Shown here one piece after another: positions 4,833-43,070 of a DNA stretch of 43,070 nt. The stretch is from a virus. Position 1 is the stretch's first letter; each line of letters begins with the position of its first letter. Location: the IMG/VR virus record IMGVR_UViG_3300002053_000006, positions 1-43,070 of that record, one strand, 5' to 3'. The position numbers and the translations under genes were made by a program. The notes below the pieces were generated by a model. That model saw only the letters and a list, made by a program, of their open reading frames with translations. It was not told where the DNA came from and did no database searches.

Positions 4833-5732
4833 ATGTTCAAGGACAATCCTAAGTTTGCACCAGAATACGAGCGCACATCTGAGGGCTGGGTTATCTTCCC
4901 TCCTGATGCTTCCTACCGCAAGGAGATGTTTCCTGAGGCTGTCTCAGGCCACATCGCCAAGGCTAACGTATTTCTAGTCCAGGCTATTATCGAGTATGTT
5001 TCCAAGCCAGACCAGCATCTGCTCGACCCTATGGCTGGCTCTGGTACTCTGATGGTGGCTGCCCTAGTTGGCCGAGACGTTATGCTTATCGAGATAAATC
5101 CAAACTATGTCCAGTGGCAGAGAGATGCACTCGCCTACCTAGATGAGCATATAGCCCCAGGCATCTCAGGTCATGTTAGCATTGTCAATGCTCCGCTACA
5201 GAATGTACTGCCTATTGCAAACCTTACCGACCATATTATATTCTCTCCACAGTACGCTGACATTATGAAGACGAAGGGGAAGGACAAGCTAACTCGTGAG
5301 ACAATGGGCGATATTGCTGGCGAGTATACCTACTCCCATCCTCTCAACTTAGGTGGCATGAATGAGTGGCTGTGGGCTCAGGAAATGAGGAAGATTTATC
5401 TTAAGTGCTACTACACTTTGAAGCCTGGAGGCACTATGACTCTCATCGTCAAAGACCATTATAAGAAAGACCAGAAGACAGGTATTCGCAACCGTATCCC
5501 TCTCTCTAAGCCTGCATGGGATACCTGTATTGCTATAGGCTTTCAGCCACTGAACTGGTTCAAGTGGAAGGCTCCTGGCTCTGTCTACACTGGTATTTAT
5601 CGGAGTCGTGGCTGGGAAGTAGTAGACGATGAGGACATTCTAATACTTCAAAAGCCGCCTGTTGTTGCATCTGAGTCTGCAGCTCTTAGTGAAGCTCTGA
5701 GCACATTCGCTGTGCGCCCAGTGGCTGTATGA
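4833..5732 (+). CDS. DNA methyltransferase (N4/N6 amino-methylase type)
   Basis: A 299-residue SAM-dependent DNA methylase. Motif I, LLDPMAGSGT, is at residues 63-72, followed by the acidic LIEIN that binds the SAM ribose. The catalytic motif IV reads SPQY (138-141) where the family has (D/N/S)PPY, so the first Pro-Pro pair is broken. Motif order is I before IV. No restriction endonuclease accompanies it, so it is probably a solitary phage methylase for host-restriction evasion or regulation. GAGGAGGT precedes the ATG. The target is unknown, and reduced activity is possible given the Gln. Confidence 0.75.
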   Translation: MFKDNPKFAPEYERTSEGWVIFPPDASYRKEMFPEAVSGHIAKANVFLVQAIIEYVSKPDQHLLDPMAGSGTLMVAALVGRDVMLIEINPNYVQWQRDALAYLDEHIAPGISGHVSIVNAPLQNVLPIANLTDHIIFSPQYADIMKTKGKDKLTRETMGDIAGEYTYSHPLNLGGMNEWLWAQEMRKIYLKCYYTLKPGGTMTLIVKDHYKKDQKTGIRNRIPLSKPAWDTCIAIGFQPLNWFKWKAPGSVYTGIYRSRGWEVVDDEDILILQKPPVVASESAALSEALSTFAVRPVAV

Positions 5733-5780: not shown

Positions 5781-6350
5781 ATGGATGACGACACTATTGG
5801 ACTTCATCCTGGTGGTATGGAGACATCGTCAGGCCTATATATCAATCCTCTAGACCCAGACCCCAAGCTGATTACTGCTCAGGACATAGCCCACCATCTT
5901 AGCTTGATATGCAGATTTCGTGGTGCTTGCAAGTGGCACTACTCAGTTGCCCAGCATAGCATATACGTGTCAGACATGCTGAACATGATGGGCGAGAGCA
6001 CTATAAACCAGCTCGCTGGCATTCTGCACGATGCGGCTGAGGCCTATCTTGGAGATGTAATCAGGCCTATTAAGCACTTGGATGCAGCCAAGCCACTTAG
6101 ACTAGCAGAGCATAGACTCCAAGCTGTTATCAATAAGAAGTTCGGAGTTGAGGACGCTGACTGGAAACTCATTAAAGATATAGATAACATGGTTATAGGA
6201 GCTGAGGCGAGACAGCTTATGCCTAGTGGAGGCAGAGGTTGGAAGAACCTGCCAGCACCTGCTGACATCAAGATTACCAGGCTGCCTCCAGACGTTGTTG
6301 AAAGCTGGTTTCTCGCCCAGCTCAGTAATCTTATGCGGAGATTAAGCTAA
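5781..6350 (+). CDS. HD-domain phosphohydrolase (YfbR-like 5'-nucleotidase type)
   Basis: A 189-residue protein with the HD metal-site series: H59 in AQHS, H83-D84 in LHDAAEAYLGD, then E87, D92, and D135 in IDN. This pattern matches YfbR-type dNMP 5'-nucleotidases and related phage HD proteins. A role in degrading or balancing nucleotides before DNA synthesis fits its place right before the polymerase. The ATG at 5781 follows GGAGGGTCAAAA; an in-frame TTG at 5733 is the promoter -35 box and cannot be the start from this promoter. It overlaps the polymerase gene at TAATG. Confidence 0.8.
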   Translation: MDDDTIGLHPGGMETSSGLYINPLDPDPKLITAQDIAHHLSLICRFRGACKWHYSVAQHSIYVSDMLNMMGESTINQLAGILHDAAEAYLGDVIRPIKHLDAAKPLRLAEHRLQAVINKKFGVEDADWKLIKDIDNMVIGAEARQLMPSGGRGWKNLPAPADIKITRLPPDVVESWFLAQLSNLMRRLS

Positions 6351-8008
6351 TGCCGACATACTTCTATCAGGATGGTCAAGCAGGAAGCGGAAACCCGAAG
6401 AAGCGGTTTCAGTACTGGCTAGATAATCCGCCATCTGCTATTGCTATTGATGTCGAGACTCCAAGCCTAGAAGACCGTGACCCTCTTGGCTTTGCGATTG
6501 CCTTCAACCCTCACGAGGCTGTGTACTTTGATTTACGGCCTGAGCCGCCTAGGGAGCTGGAGCTAATCAAACCAATGCTCCAGAATATGAACATTACTAA
6601 AGTAGGACATAACTTGATGTTCGACCTCGGAGTATGGCCGCTGATACCGATAGTCGGGGATAGTATGAATAGAGCCAAATTGTTTGATACTAATGTGGCA
6701 GCTCGCATACTCGGCAAAATAGAGACAGCATTGTATCTTCTAGCATTCGAGGTTGGTATGGAAGCCACTCCAGTCAGCGACATGCTGGGGCCTAAGCAGA
6801 CGATGGAAGACCTTGACCCTCGTGACGTAGCCAGAAAGTGCCAGAACGATGCCAAGGTTAGCTATGCACTTTATCTGCAGCAGTTTCCAAAGATTGACTC
6901 TAATTTCCGTGAGTACTTCAATATTGAAATGCAGGCGCTGCCTATAGTCCTGGACATGAGCCTTCATGGAATTCTCATTGACCAGGCCAAGAGATATGAG
7001 CTATCTGTTGAGTACGAAAAGGAAATCAAGTTCCTTGAGGAGTTCATACATGGGTTTGGAGTTGAAAAGCCTGGGAGTCCAATGCAGGTTGGATATACTC
7101 TGGCTAATCGTGGAAACTTCCTTAAATTTACGAAGAGCCATAAGCAGTACCGTACAGATAAATCAGAGCTTGAATTCCTGTCAGACCCTCTAGCTGCAGC
7201 CATACTTAAGTACCGCCGAGCCGCCAAGTTCAAGAGTACATATCTAGACCCACTAGCTGGAGAAGACAGATTTTTCACCGAGTACTACTTCGATACATCA
7301 GTGGGAAGAATGAATAGCCGTAGAAGAAATATCCAGAATATCCCACTGCTGGCTAGAGCTATGTTAGTTCCAGAGTCTGGCGTATTCACTACAGGAGACT
7401 ACAGTCGAGAACACTTATATATTCTTGCTCACATGAGTCAGGACAGGGATATGCTCAGAATATTATACGACCCTGACAGAAGAAGGTCAGACTTGCACCA
7501 GCACACTGCAGATAAAATGGGAGTCCCGAGACAACTGGCTAAGACACTTAACTTCGCCGTAGCCTATGGCGCTACCCCAAGGACTGTAAGGGACGAGGCT
7601 AAGATTAGAGACCTTCAGGTCTGCAAACGTCTGATTGAGGACTGGTTCAAGACTTACAAGGGGGTGGCAGACTGGGTTCAGCATGCTCAGCAGGTTGGAC
7701 TAAGAGACGGGTGGTCTCTGCCTACGCTGTTCGGCAGACGTATAAGAATACCCGAGGATGAAAAGACTGACCAGCGTGAGCGAAAGTCTGTGAATTACCC
7801 AGTGCTTGGCTCAGATGGCGAGGTTATCAAAAGGGCCATTGTGCTGTGCAACAAGCGGAGTCTTGGTCCTCCCAAGATGGTTATTACTGTCCACGATAGC
7901 ATCACTTGGGATGGCTCTTATAGCAAGCAGATACCAGTTGAAGAGCTCCAGATGATACCAGGCTTCAAAGTTCCATTCGATGTCAAGGAGACTGTAAGAT
8001 GGGAGTAG
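6350..8008 (+). CDS. polA: Family A DNA polymerase with 3'-5' exonuclease domain
   Basis: A 552-residue replicative polymerase. The exonuclease domain has IDVE (D34, E36), GHNLMFD (D92) and a third Asp (D167, without the usual Tyr four residues before). The polymerase domain has motif A GDYSREHL with D350, motif B RQLAKTLNFAVAYG (R394, K398, F402, Y406) and motif C TVHDS with D516. Two normally conserved acids differ: the Glu five residues after the motif A Asp is His355, and the Glu after the motif C Asp is Ser517. The O-helix Phe402 (E. coli 762) is linked to virulent lifestyles in phage surveys. There is no 5'-nuclease domain. Confidence 0.9.
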   Translation: MPTYFYQDGQAGSGNPKKRFQYWLDNPPSAIAIDVETPSLEDRDPLGFAIAFNPHEAVYFDLRPEPPRELELIKPMLQNMNITKVGHNLMFDLGVWPLIPIVGDSMNRAKLFDTNVAARILGKIETALYLLAFEVGMEATPVSDMLGPKQTMEDLDPRDVARKCQNDAKVSYALYLQQFPKIDSNFREYFNIEMQALPIVLDMSLHGILIDQAKRYELSVEYEKEIKFLEEFIHGFGVEKPGSPMQVGYTLANRGNFLKFTKSHKQYRTDKSELEFLSDPLAAAILKYRRAAKFKSTYLDPLAGEDRFFTEYYFDTSVGRMNSRRRNIQNIPLLARAMLVPESGVFTTGDYSREHLYILAHMSQDRDMLRILYDPDRRRSDLHQHTADKMGVPRQLAKTLNFAVAYGATPRTVRDEAKIRDLQVCKRLIEDWFKTYKGVADWVQHAQQVGLRDGWSLPTLFGRRIRIPEDEKTDQRERKSVNYPVLGSDGEVIKRAIVLCNKRSLGPPKMVITVHDSITWDGSYSKQIPVEELQMIPGFKVPFDVKETVRWE

Positions 8009-17885: not shown

Positions 17886-18962
17886 TTAGACTGTCACCGC
17901 TGTATCAGCGATGTCGAAGATGCGACCCAGGCCAAAGGTGCTGGGCAGAATAAGTCCGCAATAGCTGACCATTCTGAGACCGCCAGCATCATAGTCTTCC
18001 AGCTCTGGGAAGCGAACGAGTTTGTACAGGTCTCCCTGACCTTCGGTGTTACCGTAGATGAAAGTCAGGCCAGGATTGCCGCCATCGAGAGCTCCAGAGC
18101 CCTTCTTGACGAAGAACATGGAGTACCTGGCAGTAGTGCTATAGAGAGCACGAGCGTTAGAAGTAGCACCAGTTCCCGTACCACTTTCCTCCGCTACCAG
18201 ATAGTCGGTCCTGACTAGCGGAGTACCGTTCCAGAACAGAATTCTCTTGCCCAGCTCATTGAAGCCAAGGGACAAGAAAGCCAGAGCGCCAGCAGTATCA
18301 TATGCCAGACCAGCAAACCCCTTCTCCTGGTAAGCAGCATCTAGCCACCTGAGTATCTCGAACGGAGACCAGATTTCGTCAATACCGAGTTTCATAGCAT
18401 CTTCCATAACACGGAGATAATGCAGGCTCAGCCCAACGTCTTCCTGGTCGATGTTCTTAGCATCATTGGTAGTCGCTGATGTAGTATAGGGAGTACCGTG
18501 CTCAGCAGCGAGAGCATGGCAGCCGTCAAACTGCTTAGAGCTGGTATAGGTAGTATCGGCATAGATAAGGCGAGCGCCGATTTTTCGCTTCAGCCCCTTC
18601 TCGCACTCGAGCATGACACGAGCCTCATAGTTGTTGTAGGTTCCGTAGATGCCTTTGACAAAGTGGTCGAGCTTCCTCTGGATATATACAGTTTTCAGGG
18701 TTGTCTCTTTCTCTTCGTACTCGACATCGTCAGACCAGGCTAGCTGCTCGCCGACTGTTATATCAGTTACAGCATCCTCGGTAGTAGTCTTCTCACGGAG
18801 CCACTCAATCTTCAAGCCAGTGCCAGCGCCCTGTGCTACAGGGAGCCTCTCGACAGGATTGTTGAGTTTGATGTCTTCTTCATAGACACCTGGGATTTTC
18901 ATTGACTGGGTCAGTTTCTGAGCCTCAGCCAAAGTTTTCCAATGTCCGCCACTATCGGCCAT
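17886..18962 (-). CDS. Major capsid protein
   Basis: A 358-residue protein placed directly after the scaffold-like gene and under the strong internal promoter at 19.68 kb. The sequence has the mixed alpha/beta make-up of HK97-fold coats: a helical N-arm (LAEAQKLTQSM), a long spine helix region (YEARVMLECEKGLKRKIGARLI) and a beta-rich C-terminus (LVRFPELEDYDAGGL). The N-terminal arm is not an obvious processed delta domain. GGAGG precedes the ATG by 8 bases. The family assignment rests on position and composition. Confidence 0.75.
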   Translation of the reverse strand: MADSGGHWKTLAEAQKLTQSMKIPGVYEEDIKLNNPVERLPVAQGAGTGLKIEWLREKTTTEDAVTDITVGEQLAWSDDVEYEEKETTLKTVYIQRKLDHFVKGIYGTYNNYEARVMLECEKGLKRKIGARLIYADTTYTSSKQFDGCHALAAEHGTPYTTSATTNDAKNIDQEDVGLSLHYLRVMEDAMKLGIDEIWSPFEILRWLDAAYQEKGFAGLAYDTAGALAFLSLGFNELGKRILFWNGTPLVRTDYLVAEESGTGTGATSNARALYSTTARYSMFFVKKGSGALDGGNPGLTFIYGNTEGQGDLYKLVRFPELEDYDAGGLRMVSYCGLILPSTFGLGRIFDIADTAVTV

Positions 18963-18983: not shown

Positions 18984-19637
18984 TTATTCTTTTACAGGTT
19001 CTCTTACACCTCTGATACCAGTCTGAGCTAGAACCGCCTTAGCCCTATCCATATCAGACATAGGCCCAGCGCTTCCACCAGCACCGCCACCAGAAGCATA
19101 AGGTCCAGGCCCCTTGCTAGCAGAGCCAGCAACAGCCTTCAATGCCTCCTCCAAAGCATCGAGCTGCTCTGAAGTCTTGTCCTTCAGCTGCTCGTCTGTT
19201 ACCTGGGGGTACTGAAGTCTAATCTTTTCTTTCCGCAACTCCAGTACCTTAGTAGTTGAGCTTTGAACAGCCTCATTAGCCTTATCCAGAGCCTCCTTCT
19301 GCTTCGCCGCCTCTGCAGCAGAGACAGCAGACGCACCACTTGCGTCCTCAAGTTCTTTGACTCTTGCGTTCGCAGCAGCCAGCTGAGTCTGCATGTCGGA
19401 CAGCTCCAACTTAGTCCTATCAATGGCTTCATTATGAGCTGTCTGGGCTTTCTCGATGGCGGCTTCTGAACTCTTCTTAGCAGCGATAAGGTCAGACTCA
19501 TGCACAACCTTCTTACCGTCTACCATCATAACCCCATCCTTGACTTCAAACTTGGGGCTAGCTGGCGGAGTGGTAGGAGGAATAGCAGGAGGCTGGTTAT
19601 CATTCTGCTGAGAAGCACCTTCTCCAGGTTCAGACAT
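18984..19637 (-). CDS. Scaffolding-like protein
   Basis: About 217 residues with a Pro/Gln-rich disordered N-terminus, a long Glu/Lys/Ala coiled coil (about residues 45-160, including AQTAHNEAIDRTKLELSD) and a Gly-rich then basic C-terminus. This is the typical make-up of phage scaffolding proteins, which sit just upstream of the coat gene. Two adjacent ATGs are possible (19640 and 19637); the second is better spaced from GGAGGTGCG. No protease motif was seen. Confidence 0.75.
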   Translation of the reverse strand: MSEPGEGASQQNDNQPPAIPPTTPPASPKFEVKDGVMMVDGKKVVHESDLIAAKKSSEAAIEKAQTAHNEAIDRTKLELSDMQTQLAAANARVKELEDASGASAVSAAEAAKQKEALDKANEAVQSSTTKVLELRKEKIRLQYPQVTDEQLKDKTSEQLDALEEALKAVAGSASKGPGPYASGGGAGGSAGPMSDMDRAKAVLAQTGIRGVREPVKE

Positions 19638-19665
19638 CATCGCACCTCCATTATTGGATACTTAT

Positions 19666-19730
19666 AGTATAACACACACAGGGTCGGTTGTCAAGTATAT
19701 TTAATTTGACAGCGTATTATTTTTTATACC
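19666..19730 (-). promoter_or_regulatory. Late promoter for scaffold/coat, with upstream A-tract box
   Basis: Reading leftward: an A-tract box GGTATAAAAAATAA (19730-19717), a 17-bp gap, TATACTTGACAA (19699-19688, containing the -35 TTGACA at 19694-19689), a 17-bp spacer, then TATACT (19671-19666) with an extended -10 TG. The box and its spacing are identical to those at the head of the late block (30965-31029). It should boost scaffold and coat expression. Confidence 0.8.
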
Positions 19731-22700
19731 TAGCCTGCCATACTGTTATCAATGTATTTATCTTCGAGCTCAGCATATCTTTCCTTAGACTTGGCAGACA
19801 GCAAGGTATCGGTAATACCGAAGAAGTAGCACCAAGCATCAAGCTCAGGGTCAATCATTCTCATACGCTGACGAGCCTCACGAACCTTTGAGGCAAACCC
19901 AGATATTAGCTTCTCTCCATCAGGACCTATAATGTCTTGAAGCTCATCACGCTCAGCTCCACGTGCTACCTCAAAGCGCTCAATCTGCTGACGCTGCTCA
20001 TCATTATACTGCTCGAGAACAAGATTTCTGACAAGCCGATAAGGCCTCAAGTACTCCATGCTTACAGACCAGTATAGCTTCTCCATAGCGTTCCAGTCAA
20101 ACTGAATTCTGTCCAGAAATCGCTGCTTAAACTCACCTTCGAGGGTCTCAATGAGAGCCTGTATCTTGGCATAGTAGGCTTCAAAGTTCCACTCGTCAGT
20201 CTGACTATCCCAATCGAACTTCAGCTCAGGCTTGATGTCATAGTACATATACATCAGTTCTTGGTCAGGAGAGTATGTAGGAGCAGGGAGTCCTCGCTCC
20301 TCATATCTAGCGGCTCGCTCATCAAGAGTCTTAGGGACATCAGGATAGACACGCTTGCCAAGCTCGGTAACAGCTGCAGATGCCTGAGTCATTAGAGTCC
20401 CACGTTGAGACCTCCACTGGTCAGGACCTATCTCACCAGACATCCAGAGACGAGTTATCTCGTTTACAGACCTTGCCACTAGGTTGCCTTGCTCATCGTA
20501 AACTCCATTCTTGCGGTAGTCCTGATATACGTCTGATACTTTCTCATAGTATTCTCTGATACGAATATCCTCTTGCTGCCACTGAGAAGGATATAGTGGA
20601 GTAGTCACACCTTGCCAGCGCTTGTACATCTCAGAGTTATATAGTACCTTTTGCTGAAGAGCATCAAGCTTGTAGTAGTCTGAGAGGCGCTTGCCAGTAA
20701 CAGGATAGCGATTGTTGATAGTATCCTGAACTTCCACAGGCACCCCAGTCATGTCAGCTATCAGCTCTTTATTCTTATTGATGAAGTCCTGATATTCCTC
20801 AGGCCTAATACGGAAGACTCCAGTCTGTTCCATCAGAACACCTTTCCAGCCTACAGCCTTAGCTTCCGCCTGCCTCCACAGCTTCTCCTCTTCCTCAGTA
20901 AGCTTTTCTCCTGTGTGCTTCTTGCGCCAGATAGCATCAGCATCATAGCCCATCTCACCGAGGGTAAGCATTGTCAAGTATTCCCTGAACCTATCAGGAA
21001 CATAATGGTCTATAACTGCACCAGCTTTGTCTGGAGATATCGCCCTAGCAGCATCAAGTACAGTCTTTGACCAGGCTGGCATAACCTCACTCCACTCAGG
21101 CTTACCAGTTATCGCACCAGTCGCCACAATAGGTAGCATGATGTGAGCACCAGGATAGAAGCCCATACGGCTAAGGAAGTCTATCATCTCCATTCCTGGG
21201 AACTGGTCATAGTATTCAGGGTAGTCTCTCAGGTATAGCCGTCTGAAGCCACCCATAAAGACAGTACCACGCAGAGGATTGAACTGCAGGTCAGTTCCAG
21301 GAATAGGAATGTAGCCCTGCTCTGAGTATTCGTAGTAACGACCAATGGCAGTTCCAACTCCAGGTGTGCGGAGCATGGCACGAGGTAGCCAGAACCACCG
21401 CTGCCACTCGTAAGTCCAGAAGGGATAAATCATTCTCATAAGAGCATCTACCATGTTGCGGTTCTCATAGTCAGTGAAGTCCATCTCGTACTGAGTACGA
21501 GCTCGCTTCATAGCATCCTCACGGATGCTAGTCCATTCAGCAGACACGGATGGCTTAATCTCACCCCTCCATAGACTATCATCAAGAAGTACAATCCAGC
21601 CATCTGGGTCTCCTGGCCTCCCAACTCTAACCGCATCGTATCCTTGGTCCTGAAGTATCTCAGATATGTTAGCCCCAGCCACCTCGACATCCCAGTTAGT
21701 GTCAGATAAGTTAGCAATCTCTGCAGCCCTCTTATTAGCTTTTAGCCACACTGAGTCTGTCTCCTGAACTGGCTCGAGCAGTGGAGACGCATCCTGAGCC
21801 ATCAAGTAAGTTTCATCATGACCTATCTCAAGCACCTTTTTAGGCCTAGAATAAGTAACATCCCTAGTAGTAAGACCCTTTCCTGCCCTAGAGAACCTTT
21901 CAGCCATCTCCTTGGTGTTTGCAAGGTACAGACCAGTGCCCTCAGTAGCCTCACTGCCAGTAGTTGCATACACAGCCTTACCCTTAGGTATACCACCTCT
22001 ATACCCGATAGCAGGTCCGTACATTGGCAGACTCTCAACACCTTCTGCCACCTGATTGACATACTGCTTGAACTTAACATAATCGCTCTCAGGTATAGCC
22101 TTCAGCCCATACTGCCGAGTGAGCTCTTGCTCTACATCATCAAGCTGCATCATAGCTGGAGCAAGAGCTTCCTTGTTAGCAAATGCTGGGTCTATACCTA
22201 CGTTAGCAAACATCTGGTCATAGACATCGCCTATGGCCTCACGGCTGAAGCCCATCTCCTCAGGCGTCTTGCCAACCTTAGTAGCTGCCTTGTTTGCTCT
22301 CCTATACACCCAGGTAGTAAAGCGGTTCTTACTTCGGATGGTAGTCATAGCTCCAACCTTAGTCAGAGCCTTATACATATCATCTCCAGCAACTCCCATC
22401 ATATAGGCTACATGAGCAGGAGCAAGCTTGTCCACTACCTGAGGAACAACGGCTGGCTCGGTTATGTCAACTCCAAGAGAGTTCATCATACCAAGCTTAA
22501 GGTCTTCCACATTGTTGAAGAGGGTTTCCTCCTTTGCCCAGTAAGGTTCCCAGGCCTCAGTTGAGCGCTTCTGCTGTAGCCAGTCCCAGAACTCCTTGTT
22601 GCGCTTCCTTCGAGGAGTCTGACTGACTGCATCGTTTATAATCTTGCGGTCAAGGTCTCTAGCGGCTACAGCATTGGCATGGCGAAGTTTGATAGCGTCA

Positions 22701-25700
22701 GTCAAAGAATGCAGCCGCTGAGTTTGGTCGGCAGTGAGAGTAATGCCTGGCTTAGGCTTCATAACAGACTTCTCATACAGGGTATAGCCAGCCTCGCTCC
22801 TAGTGCTAGTGTAGTTGCCCGCCTTATAGAGCTTTTGATGTTCTGGCTTGGCAACGATACTAATTTTATTATAGCCTTTTATGACCGCAAGGTCATTAGC
22901 TAAAACATCTATATCCCTTAGAAACTGCCTGTCTAGAATTCCTGGCTTGTCAACCCCCAAAATATCTATAACTAGAGAATTGAGCTTCTTAGACTCATGA
23001 GTGCCTAGTCCACCAACCCTTATCCCGTCAAGGATAATATCATACTCTCCAGGAGCACCGCCTTTAGTTGGAGCCAGCTTAATATCCATAGTAAGGTCAT
23101 CCAGTAGTGTCCTTGGCCTACTGACATTTCTAGCTATTCCATCCAGCATAGTGTCAACGGCATCTTTGCTCTTGCCAAGGAAACCTGCTAGCGTCTCAGA
23201 CGCAGCTCGGTGGAAGTCGTCAATCTCCTGACCAGTAAGGGAAGCTGCCCGAGACTGAGTAATGCTCCTGACTTCTCCAATACGCTCGGATATGCCATCT
23301 ACTATATCAGATATAAAGCCGATGTTTCTAAGCATCTCATCAGAAGTAGCAGGAGCAAAGTCCTTAAGGTCTGCTACCAGCCTATCAAGAGCAGCTCCTT
23401 CGTTCTGTAGACTGACAATATTAAACTCACGAACAGAGTCCTTGATAGCGTTCATAGTCCCATTGATGTCTTTCCAGATGCTACCGTCAAGTATCTTGTC
23501 ACGAATAGCCTGCTTCTGGGGATTATAGATATCAGTACACTTGTCAAGAGTCTTATTCACTTCCCTAAGCGCTTTCCTCCGCTCTAACTCAGGAAGAGGT
23601 ATATCATGCTTCCTTACCATGTCAGGGCCTACAGTTGCATCCTGCTGAAGCACTCTGACAAAGTCATTCTTGTCGCCCTTGCTAATAGACTTAATATCAT
23701 CAAGGATAGGCTGGGCTCTGTCAAAGACTCTAGCTATCTCATCTATCTGGTCTGGAGCTATTTCCTGCAAGAACTGCTTGTACTTGGTCAGAAGGTAGTA
23801 TGCCCTCTGCTTAGTACCAAAATCAGCAAACATATCGTTGTACTGCTGGAGCGAGCGGATAGGATACTTCTTACCTCCAATGTCAATGCTCACACCGAAG
23901 GGAAGGTCCTTAGTAATACCAGGTATCTTGCCCTTGTTGAAGACCAGAGTCTTGTTAGTCTTAGGGTCGATGACTGCTATCTCTAGCCTGCCCATCTCAC
24001 GCTGAGCAACAACCATCTCATATGGCAAGTTGGTCAAGCCCTCTCCGATACGGACTAGCTCGTCGACTGGACTTGCAGCCCTAGGATATAGCATCTCACC
24101 TCCGCCAAGGAAGCTCCTCATGGCACTCTCAATCACATTGAAAGGACCATAGTTGGTGAACAGCAGATACTGATTAGCCATAGGAGCAGTGAACATTCTG
24201 TCAATCTTAGCAAGGAAGCTGTTTCTGGTGAGAGAGTCAATAGCTCTTCCAGCTCGGTTGAAGAAGCCTGTAGATTTACCCATCTTCAGCGCATACTTAT
24301 ACACAGGACTGAGAGCTTTTCTTACCTGCATATCTTCAACATGACGCAGCAGGCCTTCAAGAACATCCCTAGCACTATCGCCTTTGATTATATCTAGTGA
24401 CGCCTTAGCTAGCTTCTCTCCCTCCCTGCTGAGCGTGTTAGTCAGCTTGTTGACATTCTTGGCTGTTGTATCTACCCCAATAGCTAATAGAATATTGGAA
24501 GCTGCCTCCTTTGAGGTAAGTGTCTTCCTATAGAACATATCGAAGAAGTTGTTCACATCATGCACCATCTGCTGAGTAACCTGAGCCCCCTCACCACCAG
24601 CTAGTTGAGCCCACTCCTTAATGGTAGCCTCCTCAAAGAAGTCATACTCAGTGAGATACTTCCCAACTCTGACCGCTAGGTCTCCAGTCTCAAAAGGCCT
24701 CTCGGCAGCTTGCTTAATAGCACTCTCAAAAGCCTCACGAACTTCAGGAATAGTGACACCTACAAGGTCCTTCCCAGTAAACCTCCTTAGATATGCTCTA
24801 GTATCCATAAATGCCTGGCGAGCATACGATATAGCTCGCTGGGTTGGAGTCTTAGGTATAGCCCTAATAGCTCTCCGAAGTCCTCTGAAAGGAACATCCC
24901 AGAGCTCAAGCCATCCTCGCTCGATAGCTCCAACAAACCTACTCAGATAAGGCCCATGACATGCAGCATCTATCACTCTCCCAGGGGTAGCTAAAAACTC
25001 AGACACCTTACCAATCTTGGTAGTAGCCTTAGCAGCTACTGTAGATGCTCTAGTAGCCCCAAGTCTTGACGCCTCAAGTGACTTACCAAGGAGTCTAAGC
25101 AGAACCTTATCTCCTGTGATTGCTACCTTAGACGCAATCCCAAACCCAAGATAAGATGTAGGGTCGAGGGCATTCTCAGCGAACATCTTATATGCCAAGT
25201 TGACATCCCAGGTTTGAAAGGCCAAGCTATAAGCCTCCCAGGCTCCAACGCCTTGGCTTCGATACTCTTCATATATTCTCTCAAGCTCAGCGGCAGAAGA
25301 GTCCTTATCAATTCTAGGAAAGGCAAGGATGGCAGCTGCTGCGAGCGGCCTAGATAAGGCATTGAAATACTTATCTAACAGCTCAAACGTAGCCATAGCA
25401 GGCTGGGTGAATAGCATCTTGGTAAACTCAGCAGGAGTAAGCTCAGGAGCCTCTACATCAAGAATACCAGCCCTGATAAGATTGAGGTAAGCGGCCTGAG
25501 CCTGCCAGTCCCTCTTGAGCTCCTCAGCGACAGTATGGATGCTATCTATATCCGCTTGAGTTTCCTCATCAAAGCCAAGGTCTGAGACAATAGTCCTAAC
25601 ATCCTCAGCACTCATCCCTTCGGGGAGTTCTACAGTTATAGGTCTGATAGTTTTAACGAGCTCATCTACAGTGAGATTGTGGACACTCTTAAGCTCTAGC

Positions 25701-26329
25701 TTCGGCTCTGACAAGATTGTGTCAAGTACCTTAGCCCTAATATCCTCCATGCTCCCAGCGTAACCTTCAGGAAGAGACCTAGTAGCCAGATACTGAAGAT
25801 TGCTGAACGCTTCCTGTAGCCATGCCTTATCACCCTCAAGCAGAAACTCCTCAGGAGAGCGCCCCGCTGGGGTGGAGCTCCAGACATACACATCCTCAAC
25901 AGTCTGAACTCCAGAGTCAGGGTCTGCAAGAATTATTGGAAGGGAAGTAATCATCTGTTGTCGCCAGCTCATCCTAGCGAATTCTTGAGTAGCAGCATCA
26001 AGCTCGGCCTGAGCGTCTTTCCACTGCCTGTCAAAGTCCTCCTTAGACAAGATGTGAATATTAGCGAATGGAAGAGGAATAGAAATGCCACCCTTCTGAG
26101 ACTGCCAGAACATGCGAGTACTTACTCTACTTGGAGGGAGCTCTGATAGCTTACGTCTTGCCTCAGTAAGACGAGCCTCTGCCCTAGCATATAGCTCACC
26201 AAACGCCTTATACTGACGCTGGTAGCCTGGATAGTATTCAACAGGCTCAGGAGGAGTTGGAGTAACAACTTTTTCCTCTTCAGGCTTCTCTTCTTCCTTC
26301 TTTTCTTCTTCATCAATACCATTAGGCAT
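19730..26329 (-). CDS. Giant virion-associated polyvalent protein with GNAT-like and ADP-ribosyltransferase-like regions
   Basis: About 2,199 residues, the largest gene, between portal and scaffold, where podoviruses often encode ejected internal proteins. The N-terminus is acidic and Pro-rich, then mostly helical. Around residues 1,095-1,190 a GNAT-like region shows VIDILGV, a long helix, ISIVAKPEHQKLYKAGNYT and GYTLYEKS. Around 1,440-1,590 an ART-like region shows GYRGGIPKG, GTGLYLANTKEMAERFS, then ISEILQDQGYDAVRV; the usual catalytic Glu is not obvious. A helical C-terminus follows. Such ART modules occur in phage polyvalent proteins. The ATG at 26329 is better spaced from GGAG than the one at 26335. 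Delivery into the host at infection is inference. Confidence 0.7.
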   Translation of the reverse strand: MPNGIDEEEKKEEEKPEEEKVVTPTPPEPVEYYPGYQRQYKAFGELYARAEARLTEARRKLSELPPSRVSTRMFWQSQKGGISIPLPFANIHILSKEDFDRQWKDAQAELDAATQEFARMSWRQQMITSLPIILADPDSGVQTVEDVYVWSSTPAGRSPEEFLLEGDKAWLQEAFSNLQYLATRSLPEGYAGSMEDIRAKVLDTILSEPKLELKSVHNLTVDELVKTIRPITVELPEGMSAEDVRTIVSDLGFDEETQADIDSIHTVAEELKRDWQAQAAYLNLIRAGILDVEAPELTPAEFTKMLFTQPAMATFELLDKYFNALSRPLAAAAILAFPRIDKDSSAAELERIYEEYRSQGVGAWEAYSLAFQTWDVNLAYKMFAENALDPTSYLGFGIASKVAITGDKVLLRLLGKSLEASRLGATRASTVAAKATTKIGKVSEFLATPGRVIDAACHGPYLSRFVGAIERGWLELWDVPFRGLRRAIRAIPKTPTQRAISYARQAFMDTRAYLRRFTGKDLVGVTIPEVREAFESAIKQAAERPFETGDLAVRVGKYLTEYDFFEEATIKEWAQLAGGEGAQVTQQMVHDVNNFFDMFYRKTLTSKEAASNILLAIGVDTTAKNVNKLTNTLSREGEKLAKASLDIIKGDSARDVLEGLLRHVEDMQVRKALSPVYKYALKMGKSTGFFNRAGRAIDSLTRNSFLAKIDRMFTAPMANQYLLFTNYGPFNVIESAMRSFLGGGEMLYPRAASPVDELVRIGEGLTNLPYEMVVAQREMGRLEIAVIDPKTNKTLVFNKGKIPGITKDLPFGVSIDIGGKKYPIRSLQQYNDMFADFGTKQRAYYLLTKYKQFLQEIAPDQIDEIARVFDRAQPILDDIKSISKGDKNDFVRVLQQDATVGPDMVRKHDIPLPELERRKALREVNKTLDKCTDIYNPQKQAIRDKILDGSIWKDINGTMNAIKDSVREFNIVSLQNEGAALDRLVADLKDFAPATSDEMLRNIGFISDIVDGISERIGEVRSITQSRAASLTGQEIDDFHRAASETLAGFLGKSKDAVDTMLDGIARNVSRPRTLLDDLTMDIKLAPTKGGAPGEYDIILDGIRVGGLGTHESKKLNSLVIDILGVDKPGILDRQFLRDIDVLANDLAVIKGYNKISIVAKPEHQKLYKAGNYTSTRSEAGYTLYEKSVMKPKPGITLTADQTQRLHSLTDAIKLRHANAVAARDLDRKIINDAVSQTPRRKRNKEFWDWLQQKRSTEAWEPYWAKEETLFNNVEDLKLGMMNSLGVDITEPAVVPQVVDKLAPAHVAYMMGVAGDDMYKALTKVGAMTTIRSKNRFTTWVYRRANKAATKVGKTPEEMGFSREAIGDVYDQMFANVGIDPAFANKEALAPAMMQLDDVEQELTRQYGLKAIPESDYVKFKQYVNQVAEGVESLPMYGPAIGYRGGIPKGKAVYATTGSEATEGTGLYLANTKEMAERFSRAGKGLTTRDVTYSRPKKVLEIGHDETYLMAQDASPLLEPVQETDSVWLKANKRAAEIANLSDTNWDVEVAGANISEILQDQGYDAVRVGRPGDPDGWIVLLDDSLWRGEIKPSVSAEWTSIREDAMKRARTQYEMDFTDYENRNMVDALMRMIYPFWTYEWQRWFWLPRAMLRTPGVGTAIGRYYEYSEQGYIPIPGTDLQFNPLRGTVFMGGFRRLYLRDYPEYYDQFPGMEMIDFLSRMGFYPGAHIMLPIVATGAITGKPEWSEVMPAWSKTVLDAARAISPDKAGAVIDHYVPDRFREYLTMLTLGEMGYDADAIWRKKHTGEKLTEEEEKLWRQAEAKAVGWKGVLMEQTGVFRIRPEEYQDFINKNKELIADMTGVPVEVQDTINNRYPVTGKRLSDYYKLDALQQKVLYNSEMYKRWQGVTTPLYPSQWQQEDIRIREYYEKVSDVYQDYRKNGVYDEQGNLVARSVNEITRLWMSGEIGPDQWRSQRGTLMTQASAAVTELGKRVYPDVPKTLDERAARYEERGLPAPTYSPDQELMYMYYDIKPELKFDWDSQTDEWNFEAYYAKIQALIETLEGEFKQRFLDRIQFDWNAMEKLYWSVSMEYLRPYRLVRNLVLEQYNDEQRQQIERFEVARGAERDELQDIIGPDGEKLISGFASKVREARQRMRMIDPELDAWCYFFGITDTLLSAKSKERYAELEDKYIDNSMAG

Positions 26330-26341
26330 AGTCATATCTCC

Positions 26342-28045
26342 TTATGCGATAGCCTCTGGGGGAATAGCTCTAGAGGCAGCAGCCCTCTCAGATAACTGTC
26401 GCTGTGCAGAAGCTGCTTGAAGCTCGGCCATAGCTGCCTGCTCAGCAGCATCATACAGCTCGGCAGTAGCATCATCATTGTTCTTTCTAAGGAACGCCGA
26501 CTGCTCACGATAATACGCAATCAAGGCTATTAGAGCATTAGTAGGATGTGCTTCAGCCATTGCCTTTCTAATACGGGCCTTCTCAAGCATCGGGTTCTTG
26601 ATATCTGCAAACAGCTTGTGCAGGACGTAATCATAGCTCAGAGAGAATTGAGGGTCTAACATACGTGCAACTGTGGCCTTCTGAACCATCTCTCCAGGAA
26701 TTTCCACACTGTACTCAGCAGTGACCCTCATTTCCTTATTCAATCCCTTTGGAACCTTCCACCCGTAGGGAGATATTCCACGTTCTCGGGCATCATCTAT
26801 GAGGTCATTGTCTATATCACTCATCAGGTCAATGAGAGCCTGATGAAAAGGCTTGATGATTTGGTTAGCAGACGCAGCAATCTGGCTCATCACATAGGCC
26901 GACACCTGGCCAGAAACACTACCATGCATAGCCCACGAGACTCCACCTCTCTGCATCATAGCTTCGAGGTCAAGCTGGGTACTCCTCAGCTCAAGAGGTA
27001 TAGGAACTCCACCAATGAACTCAACAGAGTCATCAGGACCGCCCCTGAATATAGAGCCACGTCTGAACAGGTCCTCAGGCTTAACGATTGGCCTTCCACT
27101 TCTGCTCCGCTCAAACACAGCAGGCTGAGCTGTGTCACGCATGAGCTGAAGAGTGAAGGTCCACCACCTATTCCAGGTTCGATATATGTTCTCATTGGTA
27201 GCAACCACACTCTGGCCAATTTCTTCCTTCCAGCGGTCTCCTTTGGCCTGAGAACCAGCGTTGTAACTCTGCGTGTCCAGTTCTAAGTTTTGTGATAGAG
27301 CCCCAGTGTCAGGCAGTCCACCTACAGGCGACACATAGATTGGAATACGCTTAAAGCGGGTTGGAGCAAACTTGACAAGACCGTCAGTACTGTCACCAAT
27401 GACCACAGCGTTCCACACCTGATTATAGTCTGGCTCAATCCACCAGTAGTCATATATAGTGACATCCTTCTTGCCTCGAAGGTCTACAGTAGTCCACCCG
27501 TTCCTTTTTATCATCTGAGTAGCAGCATCGGCTGACATGCTGTATATATGAGCAACCTCTGATAGCCCAAGGTCAAAGTTGTCCCACATTGGATAAGTCT
27601 CGGCAGGACTCCAGACATCAATGAGTGAGTACGAGCCATCGTCACTGTTGATAGCAAATACTGCATACCATCCAGTGGCAAGAAGCGTCCCGATAAGAGC
27701 TCTGCTTAGACTTTGGCGAGGCCCAGTTCTACGAAACCGTATCTGGTTATCAGACCACACGGTATTGAGGAAAGTAGATACAGACTCATTGACGCCAGCC
27801 AGCTCAGGAGACCCAAGCTCATAGGATGATAGTCGATGAGGAACTTCGGCGTCTAGCAGATGTAGAATAAGATTATACATGCTCCTAGGGTCATTGCCTA
27901 CAAATGACTCCATCTTCTCAGTCCTGAGCTCATCAATCATCTGGATGAGCCTATACCACTTCCTCATCTTATCGTTGCGAGGCCGCCAGTATGTTCTCAG
28001 CTCCTTACAACGAGATGATACCTTCTGAGCATCACGTTCAATCAT
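26342..28045 (-). CDS. Portal protein
   Basis: A 567-residue protein directly after the large terminase, the usual place for the portal, the dodecameric ring through which DNA enters the head. Features match podoviral portals: a helical N-terminus (RDAQKVSSRCKELRTYWRPRNDKM), a wing-like beta region with DVWSPAETYPMWD, the STQLDLEAMMQRGGVSWAMHG helix, and an Ala/Gln-rich helical C-terminus (barrel). An AAGGGGG site precedes the ATG. It lies 2 bp from the terminase gene. Confidence 0.8.
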   Translation of the reverse strand: MIERDAQKVSSRCKELRTYWRPRNDKMRKWYRLIQMIDELRTEKMESFVGNDPRSMYNLILHLLDAEVPHRLSSYELGSPELAGVNESVSTFLNTVWSDNQIRFRRTGPRQSLSRALIGTLLATGWYAVFAINSDDGSYSLIDVWSPAETYPMWDNFDLGLSEVAHIYSMSADAATQMIKRNGWTTVDLRGKKDVTIYDYWWIEPDYNQVWNAVVIGDSTDGLVKFAPTRFKRIPIYVSPVGGLPDTGALSQNLELDTQSYNAGSQAKGDRWKEEIGQSVVATNENIYRTWNRWWTFTLQLMRDTAQPAVFERSRSGRPIVKPEDLFRRGSIFRGGPDDSVEFIGGVPIPLELRSTQLDLEAMMQRGGVSWAMHGSVSGQVSAYVMSQIAASANQIIKPFHQALIDLMSDIDNDLIDDARERGISPYGWKVPKGLNKEMRVTAEYSVEIPGEMVQKATVARMLDPQFSLSYDYVLHKLFADIKNPMLEKARIRKAMAEAHPTNALIALIAYYREQSAFLRKNNDDATAELYDAAEQAAMAELQAASAQRQLSERAAASRAIPPEAIA

Positions 28046-28047
28046 AT

Positions 28048-29742
28048 TTAGACCCCCTTACCCCAGTTCTCATCCCAGCCTCCGCCTTCGCCAGAGCTCC
28101 CGCCATACCCACGCTGGACAGACTGGGCATTACGGCAAACTATACCAAGAGCACCAGCATCGTGGTGGTCATCAGCACCAACAACTATAATGCCACTTTT
28201 CATAGAGCTGTCTCTACGAATGTTTCTGCACTGAGACCAGAAACGCTGGTCCTGGCAGTCAATATGCTCAAGGTGCCTGTTTACTTCAGTTATCATGTAT
28301 GGCTTAGTACTGGTATTAGTTTCCCAGCCTATAGCCCGAGTAATCTTACCACTTCTGACATCCTCCCTCCAGTAGAGGTCTGAATAATCCTTAACATGGC
28401 CTACGATGTCGAGATTGCTCTCAGGACATAGTACTGCATCATTATAATAGTGGCCAACCATCTTGCAGAAGTCAGCCATTTCGTCAGACTCGTAGAAGCC
28501 AGCTAGAGTTGCACAGTGCATCATAATCGGAGGATGCTCATTACCTTCTTTATCACGGTAGCCGTCCTCAAAGTGCCATACATGGGCAACAGACTCAGAC
28601 TGCTTGCCCTTGCCTGGGTCTATAGGAACCACATACTGAAGCCCATCTTCCCTGTCATGCCAGATTTCAAGGGTTGCTGAGAGACCAGTTTTCTCATTCA
28701 CCATGTTCTTACGAACTGGAGCTGGCCTACAATTCCTTATCTTATCATTTATAATGTCTCCGCTATAGGCTTGGTCTCCAGCAGTGATGAAACATGACTC
28801 ATCATCAGATGGATACTCCTGCTCGAATATCAGAACAGTCTCACCGCTGCGTCTCATAGATGCATTCTCAGCCCTATTGTACCGCCTCCAGCGAAGTTTT
28901 GCCATAATAAGCTTGTCGTCGAAGTTGAACATAGACTTCATCAGAGTAGCAAGCTTTTCCTCGTCAGCGTCTATATTAGGTAGTGGGTCTTGGTCATCTC
29001 CAGGCATACAGAAGTAGTCACCAGGCCACATCACATACTCAGGATGCATGAACCAAGGGTAGAAGTGAGGCTTATACACAGACTTGGCTACAGAAGTGCC
29101 TTCGATAGCTGCCTTATACATCTCATGGAAAGGATTGTCCTCACCGTTAGCAGTCGAACCTACCCTAATCTTAGTTCCGACCACCAGCGGAACTCTCTTC
29201 ACAGCAGATGCAAAGACTGCCTCATGAGTCCCAATAGGCCAGAACGCATACTCATCAAGTAGAAGATTGTGAATTGCCTCACCACGACCAATAGTATAGC
29301 TGCGAGCCGAGAAAATGTACATGGTAGAATAGAAATTAGTATCCTTGTCTACCCAGCTCAGTTCCTCAGCCGCCTTATGGTCAAGCTTTGGAATAGTTGG
29401 AATTATTCGCTCAAGTGCCTGATGAAACCGCTTCGCCTTCAGGACCTGTCGCTTAGCTGAGAACTCATCATAGCTGATAATCACTGAGACAGTCCCATTG
29501 AGAAAGATGTTATCTAGGTAGAAGTCTCCAACTACCAGCGAAGTAAACCCGACCTGCGAAGGCTTAACATAGATGTCCCTGTACTCTGAAGTATCAACTA
29601 CATCCTCTTGGATAGGATTGAGCCTCATAGGCACAAGTTGCCTCTCCTTGTTCTCAATCTGCAGAAGCGAGCTTATGGTAGTCTTGCGGTCTGAGAGCAA
29701 GCGCCTCATAGCCTCATCGAATGAAATGTTGGCAACTGCCAT
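28048..29742 (-). CDS. terL: Terminase large subunit
   Basis: A 564-residue packaging motor. The N-terminal ATPase has a terminase-type Walker A, KPSQVGFTS (residues 60-68), and Walker B LLLDE (D163, E164). The C-terminal RNase H-fold nuclease shows PIDPGKG (D375), CPESN (E441) and HHDA (D528), the three acids expected for DNA cutting. It pumps and cleaves DNA at the portal. GGAAG precedes the ATG, which follows directly on the stop of the upstream basic protein. Which packaging class it belongs to (headful or other) cannot be read here. Confidence 0.9.
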   Translation of the reverse strand: MAVANISFDEAMRRLLSDRKTTISSLLQIENKERQLVPMRLNPIQEDVVDTSEYRDIYVKPSQVGFTSLVVGDFYLDNIFLNGTVSVIISYDEFSAKRQVLKAKRFHQALERIIPTIPKLDHKAAEELSWVDKDTNFYSTMYIFSARSYTIGRGEAIHNLLLDEYAFWPIGTHEAVFASAVKRVPLVVGTKIRVGSTANGEDNPFHEMYKAAIEGTSVAKSVYKPHFYPWFMHPEYVMWPGDYFCMPGDDQDPLPNIDADEEKLATLMKSMFNFDDKLIMAKLRWRRYNRAENASMRRSGETVLIFEQEYPSDDESCFITAGDQAYSGDIINDKIRNCRPAPVRKNMVNEKTGLSATLEIWHDREDGLQYVVPIDPGKGKQSESVAHVWHFEDGYRDKEGNEHPPIMMHCATLAGFYESDEMADFCKMVGHYYNDAVLCPESNLDIVGHVKDYSDLYWREDVRSGKITRAIGWETNTSTKPYMITEVNRHLEHIDCQDQRFWSQCRNIRRDSSMKSGIIVVGADDHHDAGALGIVCRNAQSVQRGYGGSSGEGGGWDENWGKGV

Positions 29743-30964: not shown

Positions 30965-31029
30965 ATTATACCTCCGTGTGTGCCATTTGTCAAGTATAAT
31001 AATTTTGGCTCATGGTTATTTTTTATACC
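30965..31029 (-). promoter_or_regulatory. Main late promoter with upstream A-tract box
   Basis: Reading leftward: GGTATAAAAAATAA (31029-31016), a 17-bp gap, TATACTTGACAA (30998-30987, with TTGACA at 30993-30988), a 17-bp spacer, TATAAT (30970-30965). The boxes and spacings match those of the scaffold/coat promoter at 19.7 kb. It drives the terminase-to-tail operon and lies back to back with the rightward promoter at 31040. Confidence 0.85.
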
Positions 31030-31039
31030 GTACTGAGGA

Positions 31040-31069
31040 TTGACAACTCATTATACTATCCTATATAAT
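31040..31069 (+). promoter_or_regulatory. Sigma70-type promoter for a leaderless gene
   Basis: TTGACA at 31040-31045 and TATAAT at 31064-31069, spacer 18 bp, in the TTGACAACT class. The expected transcription start (about 7 bases after the -10) is the A of the ATG at 31076, so the transcript would have no 5' leader. Confidence 0.8.
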
Positions 31070-31075
31070 AATTGT

Positions 31076-31528
31076 ATGGACATCTGGTTGACTACGTGCA
31101 AAAAGAAGGCCAAGTGCAGCTATTGTGAAGAGCTCATTGAGCTTGGTGAGCCAGTTGTGTATGGCAGATTATGGCTCAGAACTAAGGAAGGTGAGTACAA
31201 ACCCAGGCGATTTGTCAAGAGGTTTAGATGGCATGCCCAGAAAGGTGACGAGAAGAAGTGCTGCTGGCTAGAACAGGCGCTCAATAACCTTGCTAACAAC
31301 CCATATATAGAGACCAGAGGGAGGAAGAGGCTTGTTCTGCCTCCAGAAATTCGAGAAAAGCGGCTTAAAGTGCTTAGAAGGAGAGCAAAAGTAGTTCAGC
31401 AGCTCCGAACTGAGACAGAAGAGCAGCCAGAACGCCAGGATATTGATGAGATTATCCGTCTAGGAGGTATTCTGGCCAGATTAAAGGAAGAAATCGAGCC
31501 TCTGGGAGGAGTTCCTAAGGGATGGTAG
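31076..31528 (+). CDS. Zinc-finger protein, probably translated from a leaderless mRNA
   Basis: A 150-residue protein with CKKKAKCSYC near the N-terminus and a WHAQKGDEKKCC segment near residues 56-67, a treble-clef zinc arrangement somewhat like PARP-type fingers (C-x2-C ... H-x-C). A very basic helical region follows (GRKRLVLPPEIREKRLKVLR) and then an acidic tail, suggesting nucleic-acid binding. It is the first gene of the rightward block. The ATG coincides with the predicted transcription start and has no Shine-Dalgarno; an in-frame TTG at 31040 is the -35 box. Confidence 0.65.
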   Translation: MDIWLTTCKKKAKCSYCEELIELGEPVVYGRLWLRTKEGEYKPRRFVKRFRWHAQKGDEKKCCWLEQALNNLANNPYIETRGRKRLVLPPEIREKRLKVLRRRAKVVQQLRTETEEQPERQDIDEIIRLGGILARLKEEIEPLGGVPKGW

Positions 31529-31530
31529 CT

Positions 31531-32121
31531 ATGGAAAAGATAGTATTAGGCGATTTTGCTTCCAAGATGGAAGAAATAGAGAGTTCCTCAGTAAGTTTGG
31601 TATTTACAGACCCTCCATACTCTCCCAAGTACTTCTATATTTGGGAGAAGCTCGCTAGAGAGTCTAAAAGGATACTAGTCGACGGAGGCTCACTCGTATC
31701 ACTAACTGGCAATATCAATCTTCCCAGCGTGCTGAGTACAGTGGGCAGATACCTAGACTACTATTGGTGCTGTGCGCTACTTCATGCACAAGTTTCTATT
31801 GTCGAGGCTGTCAACATATACAATACTTGGAAACCAGTAATATGGTTTTCTAAGGGAAAGCCCATTAGAAGTAACACCACACTTCCAGACGGTATCAGTC
31901 CTCATGGAGCTCAGAAGAATGACCATAGGTGGCAACAGGCAGATAGCTGGGCAGAGCACTTCATTCCCAATCTAGTGCCTCCAGGAGGTACAGTGCTAGA
32001 CCCGTTTCTCGGAAGTGGAACTACAGCTGTTGTTTGCAGGAAGCTAGGACTAAGCTTCATAGGAATAGATAATGACCCGAAAGCCATAAGCACAACTTTA
32101 AGAAGGCTAAACGGAGTATGA
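31531..32121 (+). CDS. DNA methyltransferase, beta-class type (DPPY)
   Basis: A 196-residue SAM-dependent DNA methylase with catalytic motif IV TDPPY (DPPY at residues 27-30) before motif I LDPFLGSGTT (156-165) and FIGIDND, the circular order of beta-class N6-adenine/N4-cytosine enzymes. Unlike the second methylase at 4833, its catalytic motif is canonical. The target domain between is short, and no partner restriction enzyme is seen. ATGs at 31522 and 31531 are both possible; MEKIVLGDF is the usual family start. Confidence 0.8.
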   Translation: MEKIVLGDFASKMEEIESSSVSLVFTDPPYSPKYFYIWEKLARESKRILVDGGSLVSLTGNINLPSVLSTVGRYLDYYWCCALLHAQVSIVEAVNIYNTWKPVIWFSKGKPIRSNTTLPDGISPHGAQKNDHRWQQADSWAEHFIPNLVPPGGTVLDPFLGSGTTAVVCRKLGLSFIGIDNDPKAISTTLRRLNGV

Positions 32122-42639: not shown

Positions 42640-43070
42640 ATGGAACGAGTAGATAATCCAGAGCTCAAGAACCGTATCCTGAAGCATCTGGCTAGCATCT
42701 ACAAGATAGACGAGGTAAGAGAGCCTAACCACCTATCTTCCTACGTATATTGTAGAACCAAAACCTTCTTCGAGCAGAAGCAGGCCACCGAAGCTACTGA
42801 GCAGGAGGTTATGTTGTTTGTTCTAGGCTATGGGCTTCAGGATATTCTTACTCCCAAGTCAGCCGATACTCCGCTGTATGAGAAAGACGGTATCATATAT
42901 AGGCCTGATATGAGCTTCAAGATGGATACCGCTGAGGCTGAGCAGCTGGCTGAACTCAAGACTACTCGGAAATCAGCCCGTAGCCACTATGATGAGGACA
43001 GCATACCTGAGACCTGGCTTATGTATATGAAAGGTGGATGCTATATCAGAGGCACTAACACCTATGACCT
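42640..43070 (+). CDS. Cas4-like PD-(D/E)XK Fe-S nuclease, N-terminal part (continues at 1)
   Basis: Residues 1-143 of a 223-residue protein, cut by the window edge and resumed at 1-276. It carries the first iron-sulfur Cys (C38 in YVYCRTKTFFEQ), the nuclease acids D90 (YRPDM) and the E105-x-K107 pair (AELKTT), and QDI near 67-69, matching the Cas4/RecB core. The full protein is of normal Cas4 length (about 200). It probably resects DNA ends for the Sak4-like ATPase downstream. The Shine-Dalgarno is weak (CTGGAAG), and a structured leader lies just upstream, suggesting controlled translation. Confidence 0.82.
   Translation, partial: MERVDNPELKNRILKHLASIYKIDEVREPNHLSSYVYCRTKTFFEQKQATEATEQEVMLFVLGYGLQDILTPKSADTPLYEKDGIIYRPDMSFKMDTAEAEQLAELKTTRKSARSHYDEDSIPETWLMYMKGGCYIRGTNTYD
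43036..43070. repeat. Terminal direct repeat, right copy
   Basis: Exact copy of positions 1-35; see the left copy. Joining the ends removes one copy and leaves about 43,035 bp. Confidence 0.95.

Follow-up and report, generated by a model that had tools for sequence, protein, structure and literature searches.

A Giant Phage Gene with Two Inserted Cassettes

We analyzed IMG/VR virus record IMGVR_UViG_3300002053_000006, a phage sequence of 43,070 bases that we refer to in its full length as the window, and studied a giant gene on its minus strand (19730..26335, ATG start; all parts of the gene given below are on the same strand). The gene encodes a protein of 2,201 amino acids (about 250 kDa, pI 5.3, three cysteines), consisting of a conserved frame and two inserted cassettes. 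Identical 35-bp sequences at positions 1–35 and 43036–43070 form a direct terminal repeat; because the first and last 35 bases match, the assembly is closed and the genome probably complete. An original prediction, made from the window sequence alone, had described a virion-linked protein of ~2,200 residues with ADP-ribosyltransferase (ART)-like and GNAT-like regions. This observation was confirmed: the open reading frame (ORF) is real, with the strand omitted from the prediction and the end placed six bases early, and the quoted motifs are present (YRG at residues 1445–1447, GTGLYLANTKEMAERF from 1466, GYDAVRV from 1565, KLYKAGNYT from 1168, and GYTLYEKS from 1183). Relative to homologs, both regions are discrete insertions, so the motifs go beyond chance. 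The accompanying interpretation, that the protein could be ejected and modify host proteins early in infection, was supported in part.

A tblastn search with the giant protein found no relative among 50,697 phage records, and none was present in a collection of 84,980 bacterial and archaeal species genomes (one genome per species); from its absence in the genome collection, the clade looks lytic or has hosts that are unsampled. In IMG/VR, 101 stretches encode the C-terminal core of the protein, reducing to 66 nonredundant ORFs, of which 51 reach a length of 1,700 amino acids or more, and the longest contigs with relatives of the giant gene are about 40–47 kb. In 48 loci, the giant gene is preceded by a homolog of the putative portal gene, and wherever a capsid gene is detectable (38 loci), it lies at most 2.5 kb downstream. 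The predicted placement between the portal and the scaffold was borne out, with the order portal–giant gene–scaffold–capsid retained throughout the family, the portal being named by synteny and the scaffold by position and composition. Searched at full length, the protein gave no supported match in Pfam or PHROG, and a sequence comparison of the frame with the Protein Data Bank (PDB), solved internal proteins included, gave nothing credible. With its frame unmatched in Pfam and PHROG, the giant protein appears to head a previously unrecorded family of 66 nonredundant phage sequences, although a paper on the clade may exist outside the literature searched. As a candidate identity, an N4-type virion RNA polymerase received no sequence support from the frame in Pfam or PDB, searches that a very divergent polymerase might escape. 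In one relative (L012:12165-12177), the giant gene is interrupted by a frame change in the contig, reflecting either a sequencing error or a real pseudogene.

Cassettes Occupy Fixed Slots and Are Exchanged

The conserved frame falls into three parts. The N-terminal part (residues 1–1060; 23156..26335), delimited in a 39-sequence alignment, contains an invariant DP..Y.G.G motif (D391, P392, and G397) and has no significant Pfam match in the window protein. The helical middle part (residues 1206–1423; 22067..22720) lies between the two cassettes, and the C-terminal part (residues 1601–2201; 19733..21535) is the best conserved. In one alignment of the 51 long members, we tallied every insertion of 80 residues or more against the columns common to most of them. 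Slot 0 (around window residue 994) has six such insertions, slot 1 (about 1056–1205) has 13, and slot 2 (about 1406–1602) has 32; outside these three slots, there were five at the N terminus, three at an intein site at residue 1640, and two within residues 11–940, and none at 1006–1055, 1206–1405, 1603–1639, or 1642–2201. All three slots are empty in 11 of the 51 members. Slot 0 (residues 994–995; 23351..23356), which lies within the N-terminal frame, is empty in the window; in relatives, it is filled by a GNAT cassette (L036, L037, and L085) or an ART cassette (L046). The window has a GNAT-like cassette in slot 1 (residues 1075–1195; 22751..23113) and an ART-fold cassette in slot 2 (residues 1444–1589; 21569..22006). 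Interchangeable cassettes in fixed slots are a feature absent from the original prediction, whose two regions are the two filled slots of the window.

The exchange of cassettes is evident from pairs of closely related frames. Relatives L042 and L027 are 93% identical outside the slots, yet slots 1 and 2 are empty in the former and both filled in the latter. The frames of L049 and L055 (91% identical) differ by one GNAT cassette in slot 2, those of L065 and L064 (84%) by an ART-like cassette, and L011 and L002 (89%) carry different cargo in slot 2. DNA alignments of paired relatives showed the cargo to be replaced in frame, with well-conserved flanks. The cassettes also move between slots: the GNAT family of the window occupies slot 1 in the window and L005 and slot 0 in L036, L037, and L085 (E-values of 2e-49 to 2e-52), while the ART family occupies slot 2 in the window, L072, and L080 and slot 0 in L046 (2e-45). 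The window ART aligns end to end with the independent cassettes in L072, L080, and L046 (5e-44 to 2e-45); these E-values come from family-iterated profiles and show that the cassettes belong to a single family, without amounting to independent discoveries. A foreign base composition of the cassettes was not seen, the GC content of third codon positions being 0.42 in both and inside the frame spread of 0.33–0.58, and the measure was uninformative. The fast turnover of cargo suggests selection by differences among hosts or by host defenses.

Another kind of insertion affects the motif PFW^TYEW (residues 1640/1641; 21413..21418), which is uninterrupted in the window. At this site, relatives contain inteins (L004:7576-8511 and L044:8089-9000, with partial ORFs in L040 and L092) that start with Cys, end with Asn, and are followed by Thr. 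No motif of the giant protein is better conserved than the one broken by the inteins, which points to its being functionally critical. The intein of L042 is slightly displaced from the site and matches Pfam Intein_splicing at 2.9e-4, under the cut-off.

The Slot 2 Cassette Has an ART Fold

An AlphaFold2 run over residues 1020–1640 left the ART region unmodelled, and the fold was assessed from a run on seven ART cassettes. The resulting model reached a predicted local distance difference test (pLDDT) score of 84.5 and a predicted template modeling score of 0.80. Its best solved match in a Foldseek search of the PDB was 9k3a chain B (E-value of 6e-5), which we identified by sequence as gp27 of Anabaena phage A-4L, followed by the anti-CRISPR structure 6kyf (2.8e-3) and then by RES, ParT, cholix, MbcT, diphtheria, and PARP. 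Among predicted viral structures, an ART-PolyVal-like protein matched best (2.8e-5), and the first six matches included a MuF fusion protein. Using hhalign, the window ART and two relatives matched a second group of ART cassettes with a probability of 95.4% (E-value of 1.8e-8), and the L080 member of that second group comes close to the Pfam family ART-PolyVal (PF18760; 1.2e-6, 29.8 bits, the cut-off being 31.2). Given the model and its matches, the ART fold proposed in the original prediction held up well. By sequence, the cassette has no credible match in the PDB, and a tblastn search of the phage records with the ART alone returned only matches with an E-value of 4, all to one Pseudomonas phage group, that we judged to be chance.

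The active site assigned to the ARTs of polyvalent proteins is H-Y-D (Iyer et al. 2017, PMC5512222). In the ART-PolyVal/Tox-ART-HYD2 clade, the His belongs to strand 1, the Tyr to strand 2, and the Asp to strand 5. With strands assigned from the model, the window ART has R1446, Y1470, and D1567 at the corresponding positions, so that Tyr and Asp are kept and Arg stands for His. The Arg and Asp are invariant in all seven aligned ART cassettes. In L080:8161-8949, two cassettes of different ART subfamilies stand in tandem in a single slot. Judged by eye, the slot 2 cargo of L047 and L087 resembles a different class, R-S-E (YRGS...SSS...SESELI), stated to be absent from genuine polyvalent proteins (PMC5512222).

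The GNAT-Like Cassette and Other Cargos

For the slot 1 cassette, we used the AlphaFold2 model of residues 1020–1640. Nearly all of the first 50 Foldseek matches of the GNAT region in the PDB were GNATs, with weak E-values of 0.09–0.8, and at the position of the acyl-CoA loop, the window cassette and its relatives have residues of the type GxL(N/D)RR. We consider the GNAT fold a weak assignment: the original prediction is favored by the nature of the matches and not by the model, the confidence of which was low.

Other members of the family carry cargo of a more canonical kind. GNATs occupying slots in other phages have the loops QRRGIA, RRQGLG, or RRKGIA, and those of L048 (3.1e-7) and L028 (5.4e-5) exceed the Pfam cut-off. 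A nucleotidyltransferase (NTP_transf_2) in L053 likewise lies above its cut-off (8.1e-7), and a ParB_N cargo in L087 barely below (2.3e-5). Some relatives have zincin-like cargo at several sites, recognized by the HExxH motif only; about 100,000 residues of sequence contain it nine times, eight of them inside insertions, against a rough chance expectation of two or three. A helical cargo with the pattern KVxAIDxxxxxxHxxGSLxPxxLG recurs in different slots among slots 1 and 2 of L039, L027, and L082.

A Model of Ejected Enzyme Cargo

The only argument for ejection in the original prediction was the position of the gene beside the portal, and our analyses added two more. Four homologs (L045, L046, L013, and L069) have an N-terminal SLT lytic transglycosylase domain (Pfam E-values of 4e-14 to 2.6e-6, passing the curated cut-off). 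Such a domain is also found in T7 gp16, which breaches the cell wall as the DNA enters, and its presence in the homologs supports ejection by analogy. In addition, the nearest solved structure of the ART, A-4L gp27, is a pre-ejectosome protein: the title of Hou et al. 2025, as cited in PMC12810830, places it in the pre-ejectosome inside the capsid.

We think it probable that the giant protein is an internal virion protein that is ejected, with frame slots accepting enzyme cassettes that reach the host, and that it belongs to an uncultured, probably short-tailed, phage clade. According to this model, the protein would be expressed from the packaging operon and sit in the head close to the portal, to be ejected along with the DNA or before it. 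The conserved, mostly helical frame would do the work of ejection, and the folded enzyme cassettes at its fixed sites would travel into the host; the cargo of the window phage would then be a GNAT-like acyltransferase-fold module in slot 1 and an ART-fold module in slot 2. In the first minutes of infection, the cassettes would most likely act as T4 Alt does and modify host proteins serving transcription, translation, or defense. Relatives swap the cassettes among phages and among slots. A more far-reaching version, in which the frame is a payload-agnostic delivery chassis and cassettes swapped and moved among its fixed slots let near-identical phages inject different effectors, seems to us an even bet.

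Several observations weigh against this model. The clade is known from genes alone, from which we infer the virion location, ejection, catalysis, and targets of the protein, and the portal is identified through synteny alone. Pfam detects no SLT domain in the window protein, and the frame has no significant sequence match to A-4L gp27. The window ART has no Pfam match, ART-PolyVal (PF18760) at its cut-off included; it lacks the His of H-Y-D, and the Glu opening the last strand in some ART copies (L080 and L035) is a Gly in the window, at a position that is not conserved. The GNAT block was modelled with a pLDDT of only about 50–62, its Foldseek E-values are 0.09 or worse, no Pfam model reaches it, and the usual acyl-CoA (pyrophosphate) loop Q/RxxGxG/A is replaced by KPGILDRQ. 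As neither window cassette reaches a Pfam cut-off, catalysis is unproven; we regard it as plausible, at near even odds. The substitution of Arg for His, the unconserved Gly at the third ART position, the atypical GNAT loop, and the missing Pfam match would also be expected if the cassettes had kept their folds and were catalytically dead or structural fillers, binding nucleotides or host partners or merely packing in the head. We consider this unlikely: R1446, Y1470, and D1567 are all retained in L072, L080b, and L046 across different slots, GNATs with canonical loops (QRRGIA and RRQGLG) and a nucleotidyltransferase above the Pfam cut-offs occupy the same slots elsewhere, and empty slots are tolerated, so that a filler is not needed.

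A more serious alternative concerns the target. The ART and GNAT modules might counter host defense, for example as an ART-type anti-CRISPR, and not act on transcription or translation. This reading is kept strong by the anti-CRISPR structure that ranks second among the solved structures matching the ART, and by cargo turning over quickly on near-identical frames, as an arms race would lead one to expect; Foldseek similarity does not reveal the target, however, and we hold a role in defense to be a real possibility, somewhat short of even. The position beside the portal is shared with MuF proteins, and a MuF fusion protein is among the structural matches of the ART, so the protein could be a MuF-like head-completion protein with its appended domains acting as polymorphic toxins between bacteria or phages and not as injected effectors. 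Against this, neither Pfam nor PHROG shows a MuF domain in the window protein, and a Pfam search of 39 N-terminal halves from the family gave none either; the cargo is internal, whereas it is C-terminal in MuF polymorphic toxins according to PMC12226406, and the lack of relatives in the bacterial and archaeal species genomes speaks against a prophage-borne toxin. These features make a MuF-like origin very unlikely. Even less probable, to the point of being nearly dismissed, is a decorated tape-measure protein of a long tail, for which one could cite the large size, the helical structure, and the SLT domains in some members, a domain also occurring in tape measures. In the loci examined, the gene lies upstream of the scaffold and capsid genes and not among tail genes; the protein has no strong hydrophobic segment (highest 19-residue mean of 1.26), and large, precise cassettes at three sites fit a length ruler poorly.

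Relation to Known Systems

Injected multidomain effectors, including ART with GNAT, are already an established idea (PMC5512222; PMC9503650), and the closest parallel to an ejected carrier of enzyme cassettes is found in the phage polyvalent proteins (PMC5512222). These also combine numerous enzyme domains of unrelated kinds in a single late polypeptide that is linked to the virion and predicted to be injected at entry, with ART, GNAT, zincin, and ParB-like modules, ART and GNAT being neighbors. Polyvalent proteins have two or more unrelated effector domains per chain, lie among late virion genes, and are predicted to be packaged and injected. The giant protein has an ART fold and a weaker GNAT fold, and its neighboring genes in the family, including the capsid gene by PHROG, are of the late virion type; its packaging and injection are hinted at indirectly, by the SLT domains of homologs and the pre-ejectosome match. 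We regard it as a variant of the phage polyvalent effector proteins, with exchangeable payloads. Zincin-like MPTase or LPD domains often, though not obligatorily, accompany polyvalent proteins (PMC5512222), and we found no LPD or MPTase Pfam domain in the window protein nor among the matches of the frame alignments. In contrast to the known examples, a single orthologous frame with no such recognized domain extends across the 66 sequences, and the cargo changes at fixed slots. Nucleotidyltransferases of the Pol-beta type were listed only for conjugative elements in the 2017 survey (PMC5512222), whereas here one is found as phage cargo. New are thus the one orthologous frame with fixed, reusable slots, the swaps between near-identical frames, the moves from slot to slot, and the nucleotidyltransferase cargo.

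The likeness to individual phage proteins is partial. A-4L gp27, besides giving the best structural match of the ART, is a giant internal protein of a podovirus with an ART-like stretch (SLYHGT...GTYFS), but its ART has the H form and its gene comes after the tail genes, not between portal and scaffold; as the frames are not detectably related, we consider the likeness a parallel and not homology. The ejection proteins of the T7 gp16 type share the N-terminal SLT domain with the four homologs, whereas the window protein lacks it, carries its enzyme cargo mid-chain, and has a frame with no sequence match to solved internal proteins. T4 Alt, a head-packaged and injected ART, resembles the proposed action in that an ART is delivered with the DNA, but it is of the R-S-E class and stands outside any polyvalent protein (PMC5512222), whereas here an R-Y-D ART resides in a carrier of 2,201 amino acids. 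The MuF polymorphic toxins (PMC5576092) share the gene position beside the portal and the variable effector domains; they differ in having a MuF domain and a C-terminal toxin in place of internal slots, and the phages studied here were not found as prophages.

Polyvalent proteins have so far been inferred from domain networks, while in this family one orthologous carrier has cargo entering, leaving, or being swapped at the same residue between frames up to 93% identical. This makes the idea of injected multiple effectors testable: one can ask which cassettes fit through the ejection channel, whether a given slot accepts cargo, and what function each cassette has. Were the idea confirmed, the family would supply a catalog of effectors used in nature early in infection (ART, GNAT, nucleotidyltransferase, protease-like, and ParB-like) and a candidate protein-delivery device.

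Neighboring Genes and Promoters

The genes around the giant gene are on the same, minus strand. Directly upstream is the putative portal gene (26342..28045, 567 amino acids), which together with its aligned homologs has no PHROG family of known function, no supported Pfam match, and no sequence match in the PDB. It is preceded by the terminase large subunit gene, TerL (28048..29742), identified by its tblastn matches with annotated terminases (2e-18 among others) and by a weak match to Pfam Terminase_6N (0.061). Downstream are a putative scaffold gene (18984..19640), named from position and composition only and with homologs at the equivalent place in relatives, and the gene for the major capsid protein (17886..18962), matching phrog_212 at 1e-10 and annotated major capsid proteins by tblastn at 6e-6. 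A perfect sigma-70 promoter consensus on the minus strand (30965..30993) lies upstream of the operon TerS–TerL–portal–giant gene, and a promoter-like site with 11 of 12 matches and an extended –10 (19666..19694, minus strand) separates the giant gene from the scaffold and capsid genes.

The original prediction had further assumed that the phage relies on host RNA polymerase. At the junction of the early and late gene blocks (30965–31069), we found two perfect, divergent sigma-70 promoters (TTGACA-17-TATAAT and TTGACA-18-TATAAT). The longest ORF in the window besides the giant gene has 614 amino acids, and none is of the size generally known for single-subunit RNA polymerases; both findings agree with the assumed reliance.

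Elsewhere in the window, we noted two solitary DNA methyltransferase-like ORFs (4833–5732 and 31522–32121), with DPxxGSGT-type and DPPY motifs read by eye from the translations. A further ORF (6350–8008) encodes a short family A DNA polymerase of 552 amino acids with a 3'-5' exonuclease domain (Pfam 6.2e-47 and 1.8e-10).
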